Of a stretch of DNA of 64,000 nucleotides, positions 2,085 to 60,975 are shown piece by piece. A program made the position numbers and the translations under genes. Within the stretch, counting starts at the first letter, position 1, and each line of letters opens with the position of its first letter. Source of the stretch: Rickettsia endosymbiont of Lasioglossum villosulum (GTDB taxonomy: Bacteria > Pseudomonadota > Alphaproteobacteria > Rickettsiales > Rickettsiaceae); the NCBI RefSeq assembly GCF_964026455.1, contig NZ_OZ032152.1, positions 1,240,001 through 1,304,000 on the forward strand, read 5' to 3'. Under the pieces are notes generated by a model. It saw nothing but the letters and a program-made list of their open reading frames with translations. It did no database searches and was not told the origin of the DNA.

Positions 2085-6293
<4,209 letters not shown>

Positions 6294-6431
6294 TTATTTG
6301 CTCCCAAATTTTGAAGTATCTGCATTATACTTCTTTATTAGAGTCGTTGTGTGAGTATACTTCTTTTCTTTCAAGAGCAGCATTATATACTCCTCCTAAA
6401 AGAAAATTTTAATAGTTTTATTTAATGATTC

Positions 6432-22411: not shown

Positions 22412-22528
22412 ATTGTCATTGCGAGGAGCAAAGCGACGTGGCAATCTCATAAAAATCTCCTAAGATTGCCACGCTCCTTACAGTCGCTCGCAATAACGTA
22501 TTTGGTATCCACGCAGATAACACCGCCA
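22412..22528. repeat. Palindromic element, family A with right-terminal repeat
   Basis: TTGTCATTGCGAGGAGC (from about 22413) pairs with GTCGCTCGCAATAACG (to about 22499). It is followed by GGTATCCACGCAGATAACACC, a degenerate version of the element terminus seen at 39479-39497. Confidence 0.75.
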
Positions 22529-27145: not shown

Positions 27146-28173
27146 TCTGGGTGTTTACAGATAGTAGAACGGGAAATAACCACCAAGCAATTGCACTTGC
27201 TGAAAAATTAGCAGAAGAATATACAGTCATTAGGCTTGAATATAATTGCTTAGCCAAGTTGCCGAATTTTTTACTTAAATATTATCCTATTCATATAAAA
27301 AAAGAGATATTACAAGATATTACGGCGAAACCTTTGCCTAGCATAATTATTACTGCTGGAAGAAGAACGGCAGCTTTAGCATTTTATTTAAAAAACAAGT
27401 TAAAAAAAGAAATTAAACTGATTCAAATAATGCAACCTAATTTATCTTATGAAGTGTTTGAGGCGGTGATCTTGCCTTATCATGATCAAGATCATTGCGA
27501 GCGACTGCAAGGAGCGTGGCAATCTCAGGACTTTTTCACTAGATTGCTTCGTCAATGCTATGCATTTCCTCGCAATGACGATTTCATCATCCCAATAAAC
27601 GGAGCTATCAATAACGTAACTGCTAAATTTGCTACAGCAGAGGCAGAACTACAAAAACATTATCCTAAGCTTAAAGAATTTATTGCCATAATAATTGGCG
27701 GGAATAATAAAAAATTTAATTTTACCGAAAAAGAAGCTATTCATTTTTCTTCATTGTTAAAAAGAATATATGATAATCAAAAAACTCCTTTTTTCATTAG
27801 TTTTAGCAGACGCACACCTGACACAGTAAAATCAATTATTAAAAATAACATGCCGATTTCAACAATTATATATGATCCAACTACTGATACAGGGTTTAAC
27901 CCATATATCGCTATGCTCGCTAAAGCAAAATATATAATCTCTACAGCCGATTCTATATCAATGTGCAGCGAGGCAGCTTCAAGCGGCAAACCTCTTTATA
28001 TATTCTGCCCTTCAAATTTTAATTCTGCAAAGCACAAAATTTTTGTAAAAAAACTGGTTGAGCTGAAAATAGCAAAAATGTTTGATGAGTCTGTAACGAA
28101 ATTAGAAGAGTATAGCTATCCACCTTTAGATGAAGCTGAAAGAGTTGCTGAGATTATTAAACCTTTAATATAA
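27142..28173 (+). CDS. ELM1-family protein (DUF1022) with an in-frame palindromic-element insertion
   Basis: A 343-aa protein of the family annotated 'mitochondrial fission ELM1' (named from plant ELM1); its bacterial function is unproven. It shows a glycosyltransferase-B-like layout: IWVFTDSRTGNNHQAIALAE at the start, SIIITAGRRTAALAFYL, IIGGNNKKF in the middle and TADSISMCSEAASSGKPLYI near the end, resembling nucleotide-sugar-binding folds. Residues of about 117-147 (HCERLQGAWQSQDFFTRLLR and AFPRNDD) are encoded by a family A palindromic element that keeps the frame open. It overlaps mrp by 4 bp. The insertion sits between the two lobes, probably in a surface linker. Confidence 0.85.
   Translation: MIWVFTDSRTGNNHQAIALAEKLAEEYTVIRLEYNCLAKLPNFLLKYYPIHIKKEILQDITAKPLPSIIITAGRRTAALAFYLKNKLKKEIKLIQIMQPNLSYEVFEAVILPYHDQDHCERLQGAWQSQDFFTRLLRQCYAFPRNDDFIIPINGAINNVTAKFATAEAELQKHYPKLKEFIAIIIGGNNKKFNFTEKEAIHFSSLLKRIYDNQKTPFFISFSRRTPDTVKSIIKNNMPISTIIYDPTTDTGFNPYIAMLAKAKYIISTADSISMCSEAASSGKPLYIFCPSNFNSAKHKIFVKKLVELKIAKMFDESVTKLEEYSYPPLDEAERVAEIIKPLI
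27491..27582. repeat. Palindromic element, family A, inside the ELM1-family gene
   Basis: ATCATTGCGAGCGACTGCAAGG and CTCGCAATGACGAT are the outer arms; GGCAATCTC and AGATTGC the inner arms. About 92 bp are translated within the host gene without a stop. Rickettsia palindromic elements inside ORFs are a described phenomenon. Confidence 0.9.
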
Positions 28174-29546: not shown

Positions 29547-30020
29547 TCAGTAATTTTTCGTAACTAAACAGGTATAAGCGATTGCTACAGCATCAGCTTC
29601 ATCTGAGTTAGTAATTTGGGAAGTGCCAGGCAGAAGTAACTTAATCATATGCAAAATCTGATCCTTTTCGGCATGACCATATCCTGTGACAGTTTTTTTT
29701 ATCGTGTTAGGTTTGAATTCTCGCATATCTAAACCATATCTACCAATCAGCGACATTATAGCACCTCTAGCATAGCCAAGCTTTAACGAAGTTACGCTAT
29801 TAGTATTAACAAACGTTTCTTCAATCGCTGCCATATTCGGCTTATATTCTAATATCACTTTTTCTAATATACTATTGATATAGCTAAGCCTATGATGTAT
29901 TTCATCTTTACTAGTTGTTTTTATCGTACCGCTAGCTAAGTATTTCAGTTTTGCCGACTCTTTTGCAACCACCGCCCATCCCAAACTCCCAAGTGCTGGA
30001 TCAATCCCAAGTACTATCAT
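29547..30020 (-). CDS. ruvC: Crossover junction endodeoxyribonuclease RuvC
   Basis: Holliday junction resolvase, 157 aa. The four acidic catalytic positions are visible: Asp7 in [11 protein letters not shown], Glu in AAIEETFVN (about 67), and the Asp pair in [12 protein letters not shown] (about 140) and [12 protein letters not shown]. Length is normal. It lies 1 bp from the trmJ-like gene, so probably translated from one mRNA. Confidence 0.96.
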
Positions 30021-30054
30021 TGTTGTTTTTAGTTTATTATTATTTTTCTCAAAA

Positions 30055-30324
30055 TGTCATTGCGAGCGACTAAAGGCTTTGTTGCATGGCTCGATTTTTC
30101 CTCTGTCATCCCGTGATTTATTCACGGGATCCAGTTAAAAATATCAATAACATTGATATTTTTAGTTGTTTTTCTGGATCTAGTTCCCAAGTCACGGTAT
30201 GACACCGAGGGCGTTTTTCGAGCCATGTAACAACGTCGCGACTAAAAAGAGCGTGGCACTCTTATGAGAAAAACAAGATTCCAGAGATTGCCGCGTCGAT
30301 GCATTGCCTCTCCTCGCAATGACG
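30055..30324. repeat. Family A palindromic element split by a second element
   Basis: The outer element starts TGTCATTGCGAGCGACTAAA and ends CTCCTCGCAATGACG. It is interrupted at 30075-30237 by a separate miniature element. It fills most of the 314-bp gap between ruvC and era, which holds no gene. Confidence 0.85.
30075..30237. mobile_element. Miniature inverted-repeat element inserted in a palindromic element
   Basis: A 163-bp insertion. Its ends are GGCTTTGTTGCATGGCTCG and CGAGCCATGTAACAACGTC, 16 of 19 complementary. It is flanked by the direct 9-bp repeat GCGACTAAA at 30066-30074 and 30238-30246, a target-site duplication. The interior is a family B palindrome. TIR start (GGCTTTGTTG) and 9-bp duplication resemble those of IS903-type IS5-family elements. 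No transposase is encoded. Confidence 0.8.
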
Positions 30325-30334
30325 TTTGAATTCC

Positions 30335-31216
30335 TCATATTTTCATATGTTGATAATAATCAGAATTATCTTCCCATAACTCACGCACTTTGACGAATAA
30401 AAACAAATGCACGGGGAAGCCAAAAAACTGTTCCATCTGTTTGCAAGATTTCATTCCGAGTTCTTTGATTTTTGAGCCATTTTTACCGAGTATTATAGTT
30501 TTGTAGCTTTCTCTTGAAACTACTATAACCTGATTAATCTTTACGGATTTATCTTCAAGCTCTTCCCATTTTTCGGTTTGCACAGTTAGCTTATAAGGCA
30601 GTTCTTGCTGCAACCCTAAAAATAACTGTTCTCTCGTAATTTCTGCGGCGATAAAACGCATCGGCAAATCGGTTATGTCATCCTCTTCATAAAGCCAAGG
30701 AGCGATTTTTGCTTTACTTGTTATATATTCAATTAGCTTATTAACATTCTCACCCGATATAGCAGAAATAGGAAAAAGTAAGCTGTCAGGATATTGCTCT
30801 GTTAAGAAAGTTTTAATGTCGTTTAGATATTTTGACTCAATATCTATTTTGTTTAATAAAATTACTGGGACAATATTAAGTGAGCAAAGCTTATTTAAAA
30901 TATCATGCGTTATGCTATCTAATGGCTTTAAGCTATCAATAATTAACATGACAATATCGGCACTATGCAGGCTAGACCAAGCACATCTAACCATTGCCTT
31001 TTCTAAAGTCCCTTTCGGCTCAAATATCCCTGGCGTATCATATAAGATCACTTGCGTATCTTTTAGGGTAATAATGCCGGTAATAATTGACCTAGTTGTT
31101 TGAACTTTGGGGGTAACTATCGAAAGCTTTTCGCCAATTATTCTATTTAGCAAAGTGGACTTGCCACTATTTGGTCTGCCGATAATACAAACTGAGACTG
31201 TTTTTTGTTTAATCAT
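30335..31216 (-). CDS. era: GTPase Era
   Basis: Ribosome-assembly GTPase that binds the 3' end of 16S rRNA, 293 aa. G1 [12 protein letters not shown] (about residues 13-24), G3 DTPGIF (about 60), G4 NKIDIES (about 120), and a C-terminal KH domain with [20 protein letters not shown] (about 230-250). Its start overlaps the rnc stop by 8 bp, forming the common lepB-rnc-era operon. Confidence 0.97.
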
Positions 31217-34236: not shown

Positions 34237-34331
34237 GTGTCATTGCGAGGAGCGGAGCGACGCGGCAATCTTAGGAATCATGTACTATCTCATGAGATTG
34301 CCACGCTCCTTACAGTCGCTCGCAATGACGC
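34237..34331. repeat. Palindromic element, family A (between secF and nuoF)
   Basis: TTGTCATTGCGAGGAGCGGAGCG-type left arm (from about 34237) and GTCGCTCGCAATGACG right arm, inner GGCAATCTTAGG and TGAGATTGCC. The three-frame openness of this element creates spurious short ORFs. Confidence 0.85.
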
Positions 34332-39310: not shown

Positions 39311-39650
39311 ATTGTCATCCCGTGGCGGCATTGTTGCGTGGATACCAAATCGTCATTGCGAGCGGACTAAAAGGAGCGTGGCAATCCAGAAAAAATAATA
39401 AAAAATGCTATAAGTTAGCATTTTTTTACTTCCTTGCTTCGTCAATTACTTCGTAATTTCCTCGCAATGACGAGAAAATGATCCACGCAACAATGCCTCC
39501 CGTGGCTTGGGAACTAGATCCAGAAAAAAGCAAGAGTAATCGAGCTTTTAATTTGAGAAATTTAATATGTTCATGCTTTTTATTGACTGGATCCCATGAA
39601 CAAGCCACGGGATAACATCGAGGGTGCTTTTGATCTACGCAGGCAATGAC
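39311..39650. repeat. Family B palindromic element carrying an inserted miniature element
   Basis: The 487-bp gap upstream of lpxD and downstream of the glycosyltransferase gene (39227-39713) contains no gene. It holds a family B palindrome (ATTGTCATCCCGTGGC left; CAAGCCACGGGATAACATC right, about 39601-39621) split by the miniature element at 39327-39497. Confidence 0.8.
39327..39497. mobile_element. Miniature inverted-repeat element, 171 bp, with 9-bp target duplication
   Basis: Perfect 17-bp terminal inverted repeats, GGCATTGTTGCGTGGAT at both ends. The direct repeat TCCCGTGGC flanks it at 39318-39326 and 39498-39506. The interior is a family A palindrome (39351-39472). The host sequence is a family B palindrome, restored exactly when the element and one duplicate are removed. 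No coding capacity for a transposase. Confidence 0.88.
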
Positions 39651-60807: not shown

Positions 60808-60975
60808 CTTAGTGTCATCTAGTTGCTTGATTGGGTGGATCAGTCTTCTGTCATTGCGAGGAGAAACACAGTTTCGACGCGGCAATCTCATGAAGCCCTG
60901 TGCTATTTTACGAGATTGCCACGCTCCTTACAGTCGCTCGCAATGACGACTTTTGACCCGCACGGCGGGGTGGCA
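60808..60975. repeat. Family A element within a family B remnant (between polA and ccmC)
   Basis: Core TGTCATTGCGAGGAGAAACA to GTCGCTCGCAATGACG (60849-60950). Its flanks, GTGTCATCTAGTTGCTTGA before and TTTTGACCCGCACGGCGGGG after, look like broken family B sequence. The 325-bp gap (60697-61021) contains no other feature. Confidence 0.7.

Follow-up and report, generated by a model that had tools for sequence, protein, structure and literature searches.

Two genes that we take, with the initial annotation, to be ruvC-like and era-like enclose the site considered here (Table 1). It lies in the window, by which we mean the whole stretch of 64,000 nucleotides that was analysed, in a host genome that forms one contig of 1,512,138 bp. 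Among the named relatives found by comparison of Era proteins, Rickettsia sp. MEAM1 (93%) comes closest to that genome, followed by the Diachasma alloeum endosymbiont (92%); very near records are possibly omitted. The gap between the two genes holds a palindromic repeat (family A of the initial annotation) whose two halves, carrying an inverted pair at 30052-30066 and 30313-30327, are separated by a 163-bp element at 30075-30237, set between copies of the 9-bp sequence GCGACTAAA that are identical at 9 of 9 positions. The ends of the element, GGCTTTGTTGCATGGCTCGA and, reading inward from the right, GACGTTGTTACATGGCTCGA, are alike at 17 of 20 bases, and the GTCA of the host palindrome (30056-30059) stands 6 bp outside the target. 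The initial annotation had described a split palindrome with a 163-bp insert and 9-bp duplicates, which proves correct to the base.

The longest open frame in the 163-bp element is at most 41 codons, stop to stop, and it is therefore non-coding. Folded as single-stranded DNA, the whole element gives z = -10.1 relative to shuffles. Its core comprises two hairpins in inverted orientation on either side of a perfect inverted repeat; by eye, the first reads GTC ATCCCGTGA TTTAT TCACGGGAT CCA, that is, with the GTC tag, 9-bp stem, 5-bp loop and CCA tail of the CGTC-4 description. Against the RPE4 protein model TIGR03777 the core scores 17.9 and 15.2 bits, under the cutoff of 23.95, and it is RPE-4-like rather than a member of RPE-4. 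The Rfam search returned matches below the gathering score only, the best of them a weak one to WsnRNA46 (Wolbachia sRNA 46) on both strands of window positions 30093-30218 (best 28.1 bits, gathering score 65.3); that Wolbachia RNA may itself come from such a palindrome.

Table 1. Features of the ruvC-era gap and of a second family member, in window coordinates
Feature	Position	Strand	Basis
ruvC-like gene, left of site	29547..30020	-	used in gap comparison
Host palindromic repeat, split by the insert	30055..30324		unsplit orthologues and paralogues
Target repeat, left copy GCGACTAAA, 9 bp	30066..30074		sequence, repeat comparison
Left terminal inverted repeat GGCTTTGTTGCATGGCTCGA	30075..30094	+	first 19 bases as in left end of full-length G020 IS
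First core hairpin TGTCATCCCGTGATTTATTCACGGGATCCAG, CGTC-4/RPE-4-like	30104..30134	+	inverted pair; RPE4 model only below cutoff
Central perfect inverted repeat, 13 bp, 3-bp spacer	30136..30164		inverted-repeat search
Second core hairpin, inverted relative to first, with mismatches	30174..30204	-	by eye
Right terminal inverted repeat GACGTTGTTACATGGCTCGA (inward reading)	30218..30237	-	sequence, inverted-repeat search
Target repeat, right copy GCGACTAAA, 9 bp	30238..30246		sequence, repeat comparison
era-like gene, right of site	30335..31216	-	used in gap comparison
Second family member, subfamily B, 171 bp (39327-39497), repeats TCCCGTGGC	39318..39506		exact 9-bp repeats

Unsplit sites in the window and in relatives

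Four unsplit copies of the host repeat are found in the window (34239-34329, 60850-60947, 22415-22497 and 27492-27583), and all four align through the join with 72-80% identity, in keeping with the earlier statement that removal of the insert restores a normal repeat of this family. The same join can be followed in other genomes. Every one of the 23 same-genus genomes, the window's own counted, has an Era match. An adjoining ruvC match made the gap readable in 17 of them besides the window's own genome; five loci (L097, L100, L101, L116 and L117) have no ruvC match beside Era. The insert is present in none of the 17 relatives with a readable gap, and five of them (G019, G016, G022, G005 and G015) carry an unsplit repeat of the same kind at this position. 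With the insert removed, the window flanks give a single alignment of 196 columns and 88% identity to G019 and align in one piece across the join to G022, G016, G015 and G005 (71-75%); left intact, the window sequence aligns to G019 in two parts with 172 bases unmatched. The G019 site is imperfect, having 13 additional bases close to the join; G022 shows the unsplit ...TTTTAGTCGCTCGCAATGACG. The initial annotation had proposed looking for such empty sites between ruvC and era, and had named two findings that would count against it, halves that never joined in related species and a missing direct repeat; five relatives align across the join, and the repeats are there.

Eleven other relatives have different palindromes in the gap, and one (L111) has a gene there, both as judged by eye. 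Among the eleven, the Omalisus symbiont G014, with the same gap sequence as L069, has an element of its own with such ends in another palindrome. At L063, L102, L105 and L109 the gap contains a shorter element, by eye roughly 75 bp, with similar ends; it has a different, single-hairpin core and the same type of target, and the far half of the host palindrome is absent. In Rickettsia sp. MEAM1 (L061) no ruvC match was found at the locus, and a short way past era (within 5861-6400) a ruvC-like start appears behind a palindrome, its likeness ending after about 11 codons; ruvC may be interrupted there.

Family members and their 9-bp flanking repeats

The end motif, with up to two mismatches allowed, is matched 181 times in this genome, and a reversed-pattern control not once. 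The 181-bp site as a whole has at least 61 matches in the genome (40 of 205 candidates were scored, and some places count twice, on both strands), and the element finds matches in 23 of 23 same-genus genomes, some of which may cover the core only. Members were collected by likeness to the window element or by the end motif, from the window and 60 loci of this genome (30 of those from the 181 end matches) and from 120 further loci elsewhere, two readable ends being required; this left 118, of which 34 are from this genome and 84 from other Rickettsia.

Exact flanking repeats occur in this set at a length of 9 bp, in 21 of the 118 members (5/34 in this genome, 16/84 in other Rickettsia), and at no other length from 4 to 13. 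When flanks were re-paired at random, 9-bp repeats averaged 0.43 for this genome and 0.39 for the others, with at most 3; one mismatch allowed, the real counts rise to 9/34 and 20/84. Merging of elements with similar outer flanks reduced the 118 members to 79 sites, 14 of which have exact 9-bp repeats, and random re-pairing of these gave a mean of 0.37 and at most 3. Chance repeats were rejected as an explanation on the restriction to 9 bp, the low re-pairing controls and a like restriction to 9 bp in the G013 pairings described below. The remaining 97 of 118 members have no exact repeat, readable repeats having been lost or never present. At a single locus (L171), where the end pair is of a different kind, the repeat is 8 bp long. 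The second member in the window is intact, and its TCCCGTGGC starts right after the GTCA of another palindrome.

The element is thus short and non-coding, with terminal inverted repeats and a fixed 9-bp duplication, and belongs to a dispersed family for which there are full-length insertion sequences (IS) with the same ends; these are the features of a miniature inverted-repeat element (MITE).

Full-length insertion sequences and the landing register

A search with DDE_Tnp_1_5 found two copies of a 1150-bp IS in G020. One of its ends, GGCTTTGTTGCATGGCTCG, is identical to the left end of the window element across 19 bases; the other is GGCGTTGTTGCATGGCTGT in one copy and differs by one base in the second. 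It is in the ends alone that the IS and the window element are alike. The 321-aa protein of this IS scores 228 bits to the NF033579 model of IS5 family transposases (cutoff 140) and also exceeds the cutoffs for PF13737 and PF01609, which makes it an IS5-family DDE transposase; relatives at E <= 0.001 are found in 39 of 261 genomes of the order. The IS903 group of the IS5 family has a 9-bp duplication and GGCTTTGTTG ends. The earlier description of the element's ends as IS903-type holds loosely, the G020 protein being about 28% identical to IS903B-labelled and 32.5% to an ISAba12-labelled transposase (pairwise identities, range about 28-33%); the window element is itself gene-less, and the rickettsial IS is a distant relative of IS903, not IS903.

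A full-length IS with the same ends, which the initial annotation had recommended searching for, therefore exists in other Rickettsia (G020 and G013) and was not found in this genome, where the G020 transposase protein has no match and the family model four weak ones, the best at 6.9e-5 and far below the cutoff. The four PF01609 proteins encoded here were rejected as partners, as the ends of their IS differ (CATACGCATCAAGTTAAG; CGGGCTGTTGAAAAA), and GGCTTTGTTCGGAAGGG elements of G005, G019 and G020 were likewise set aside. Beyond its own genome the window element is matched best, by E-value, in G013 (91%), and nearly as well in G022 (92%) and G005 (91%). G022, rich in full-length MITEs near that of the window (92% at best), has no match to the G020 protein or to the family model, and G005 carries just the distant GGCTTTGTTCGG type of IS.

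In G013, the symbiont of the firefly Pyrocoelia pectoralis, the IS breaks the assembly and leaves protein fragments at contig ends. Of 37 end matches, 30 were read, and these gave 12 left junctions and 11 right ones with exact ends. When left flanks are paired with right flanks, they agree at 9 bp in 8 pairings, with 4 different 9-mers, and at no length of 4-8 or 10-13; since the targets recur, a matched junction pair may not bound one and the same IS copy. MITEs of this genome have 20 of 20 end bases in common with the right end of the IS. Exact 9-bp repeats were also seen at 6 of 30 loci with a transposase relative, among distant full-length relatives whose ends start with GGCTTTGTTGC, and at an IS of G258, outside the genus, whose ends are nearest to those of subfamily B (below). 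The flanks of the two full-length G020 copies and of three copies in G186 showed no matching 9-bp repeats, for which recombination between copies could be the cause.

Two side observations concern these last genomes. The G020 copies (L119 and L123) have identical proteins, lie 35 kb apart and show the same flank in inverted order, beside a gene that we read as Tn3-transposase-like; an IS-bounded inversion or duplication is likely. The three G186 copies (L192, L193 and L194) are of a related 1213-bp IS, with the transposase match in two separate pieces in each.

End bases 11-19 divide the family into subfamily A (CATGGCTCG, 53 members), subfamily B (CGTGGATC, 39 members) and a mixed group of 26. 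For GTCA, the motif with which these rickettsial palindromes open, the distance to the element end is 15 bp in 35 of 53 A elements and 9 bp in none; among B elements the distance is 9 bp in 21 of 39 and 15 bp in 2. Both registers occur in mixed elements (7/26 and 6/26). Other offsets up to 35 have at most 2 hits for A and at most 4 for B, left and right summed, and the register is absent in 18 of 53 A and 18 of 39 B elements. After merging, offset 15 is kept at 24 of 33 A sites and offset 9 at 14 of 26 B sites. Judged from these positions, A elements land in rickettsial palindromes at GTCA + 6 bp + 9-bp target, and B elements directly after GTCA (GTCA+0). Neither this target rule nor the two subfamilies had been seen by the initial annotation. 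The window element obeys the A rule, as GTCA TTGCGA [GCGACTAAA]. It belongs to the rarer kind in its own genome, where A accounts for 3 of 34 members and for a single one of 22 merged sites, that of the window element; B accounts for 14 of the 22. The G013 IS has the register of subfamily A: 12 of its 23 junctions have GTCA at offset 15, and none has it elsewhere between 0 and 35.

Where the palindrome is of the CGTC-4 type, the A position coincides with the hairpin loop plus two pairs on each side, as in GTCATCCCGT[GGACAAGCC]ACGGG; in palindromes of other kinds it is off the exact centre. A first test of mirror symmetry about the target came out slightly above control (A 8/53, or 15%, against 9%; B 4/39 against 7%) and a second at control (A 5 against a mean of 3.9; B 3 against 3.0), so that the register is the safe statement, and what is said of hairpin loops rests on the register and the named CGTC-4 cases and not on the symmetry tests.

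The register also bears on whether the composite of palindrome and insert might have spread as a unit by recombination or gene conversion, with the register a product of copying rather than of target choice. Some sites do have outer flanks in common, which is why 118 elements merge to 79 sites, the largest group holding 21. However, the register persists after merging, the exact repeats of A elements vary from site to site (GCGACTAAA, GGCTTGACC, GGCAAGCTA, AGCCATGAA, GGAGCCGTA, TATGGCTGC, AGTTTTTCC and others), and the G013 IS enters different palindromes in the same register. Of the explanations considered we give this one the least credence, and very little of it.

We infer instead that the 163-bp segment reached the ruvC-era gap by transposition. 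It would be a non-autonomous MITE, with the ends of an IS5-family IS whose transposase is of the NF033579 type and a body of two inverted CGTC-4/RPE-4-like hairpins. The transposase of a full-length IS with such ends, of which copies are present in G020 and G013, would act in trans, binding both ends of the element and linking them to target strands cut 9 bp apart, and repair would then yield the two copies of GCGACTAAA. Target choice would be non-random, with A elements and the G013 IS preferring palindromes at their common register, and the partner IS would have been lost from this lineage, or would never have been on this chromosome. That the segment is a MITE moved by a G013/G020-type IS5 transposase, with a 9-bp duplication and a palindrome target at GTCA+6, seems to us highly probable. 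The earlier proposal that a MITE was moved in trans by an IS5 transposase thus gains from the duplication, the IS5-type ends and the full-length version in relatives, and sequence comparison makes trans movement the favoured reading for elements with these ends, to which the claim is limited; palindromic elements lacking them lie outside it.

A MITE with the same duplication could have been mobilised by some other transposase accepting similar ends, and the lack of a partner in this genome and in the MITE-rich G022 would fit. So would subfamily B, the prevalent type in this genome, with its slightly different ends and different register; no clear full-length partner for it emerged among the collected loci, and a loose pattern for its ends gave 51 IS-length pairs, many of them the same IS again or separate MITE ends. 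For subfamily A, however, the MITEs and the G013 IS agree, because ends (20/20), duplication length and target register all coincide, and another transposase is in our judgement improbable as the mover of the window element.

Relation to known palindromic repeats and insertion sequences

The nearest described pair that we found is MITEAba12 and ISAba12 of Acinetobacter, where the portion of the account consulted describes a gene-less miniature element with ends GGCTTTGTTGCA..., 9-bp duplications and a full-length IS with the same ends, and where similar ends and 9 bp are tabulated for related IS (PMC6382973). MITEAba12 differs from the window element in its length of 113 bp and its interior, and its targets are said there to lean to AT-rich sequence with no identifiable sequence trend (PMC6382973), unlike the fixed register of the Rickettsia elements inside palindromes.

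This class of element bears on the question of how rickettsial palindromic elements move. A review table lists their target duplication as '?' (PMC2229807), and a later paper inclined towards one shared origin for RPE-4, -6 and -7, with insertion hotspots not excluded (PMC3767692). In R. conorii, RPE-6 goes under the name CGTC-1 and RPE-4 under CGTC-4 (PMC3733652), and the build given for CGTC-4 (GTC tag, stem of 9 bp, loop of 5 bp, CCA tail) recurs in the core hairpins of the window element; many targets of the family are, as in the RPE-4/RPE-6 type, palindromes starting with GTCA. Unlike the window element, RPE-4 and RPE-6 are described without IS-like ends in the sections consulted (PMC3733652, PMC3767692).

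The RPE-4-like dimer core might be regarded as the mobile part, moving by another route, with the IS-like ends incidental. Among 18 CGTC-4-like dimers, in stretches not picked for ends, 5 are bounded by such ends left and right and 3 at one side only; the other 10 lack them altogether, and 7 of these 10 measure 75-78 bp. End-less dimers are thus common. But it is the IS-like ends, not the core, that the 9-bp repeats directly flank, and in the R. rhipicephali gap (L063 and L102, by eye) similar ends enclose a shorter element with a different core. A mobile core is therefore very improbable as the explanation of the window element, if marginally less so than the copying of composites. The end-less dimers do lead us to reject the notion that every palindromic element of Rickettsia is a MITE of this kind: with 10 of 18 lacking ends, many palindromic elements are left unexplained by this family, and the MITE reading of the initial annotation does not carry over to Rickettsia palindromic elements at large.

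REPINs are doublets of REP sequences moved by a RAYT tyrosine transposase, with no target duplication; the 9-bp duplication of the present family speaks against a REPIN. REP palindromes also serve as landing sites for IS (IS1397, ISRm22 and ISPpu9/10, for example) of several families, including IS5, according to a survey in which, in the part consulted, R. conorii had no IS, so that nothing was tested there (PMC1525189). The Rickettsia case differs from those REP-targeting IS in that a MITE family and its likely IS follow a common rule, and in that the body of the MITE itself carries hairpins of the target type. A literature search, made mostly at the level of listings, returned no description of IS5-type MITEs or of a landing rule in Rickettsia.

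A tentative further reading, to which we give a little less than an even chance, is that IS5-type IS and their MITEs use palindromes as landing pads in a fixed register, and that, the MITE body being itself made of palindromes, each insertion supplies new pads. If so, the element would be self-nesting and kept out of genes, its subfamilies would have diverged in register (GTCA+6 and GTCA+0), and its movement would be one of the engines that spread rickettsial palindromic repeats and give them their mosaic structure. Whatever the standing of that reading, for one palindrome-bearing class there are now clear ends, a duplication of 9 bp, a candidate transposase, a landing rule and, in relatives, an unsplit site. 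Together these make trans-mobilisation and target choice directly testable with defined DNA, and they offer a simple account of how different palindromes can come to pile up in one gap.
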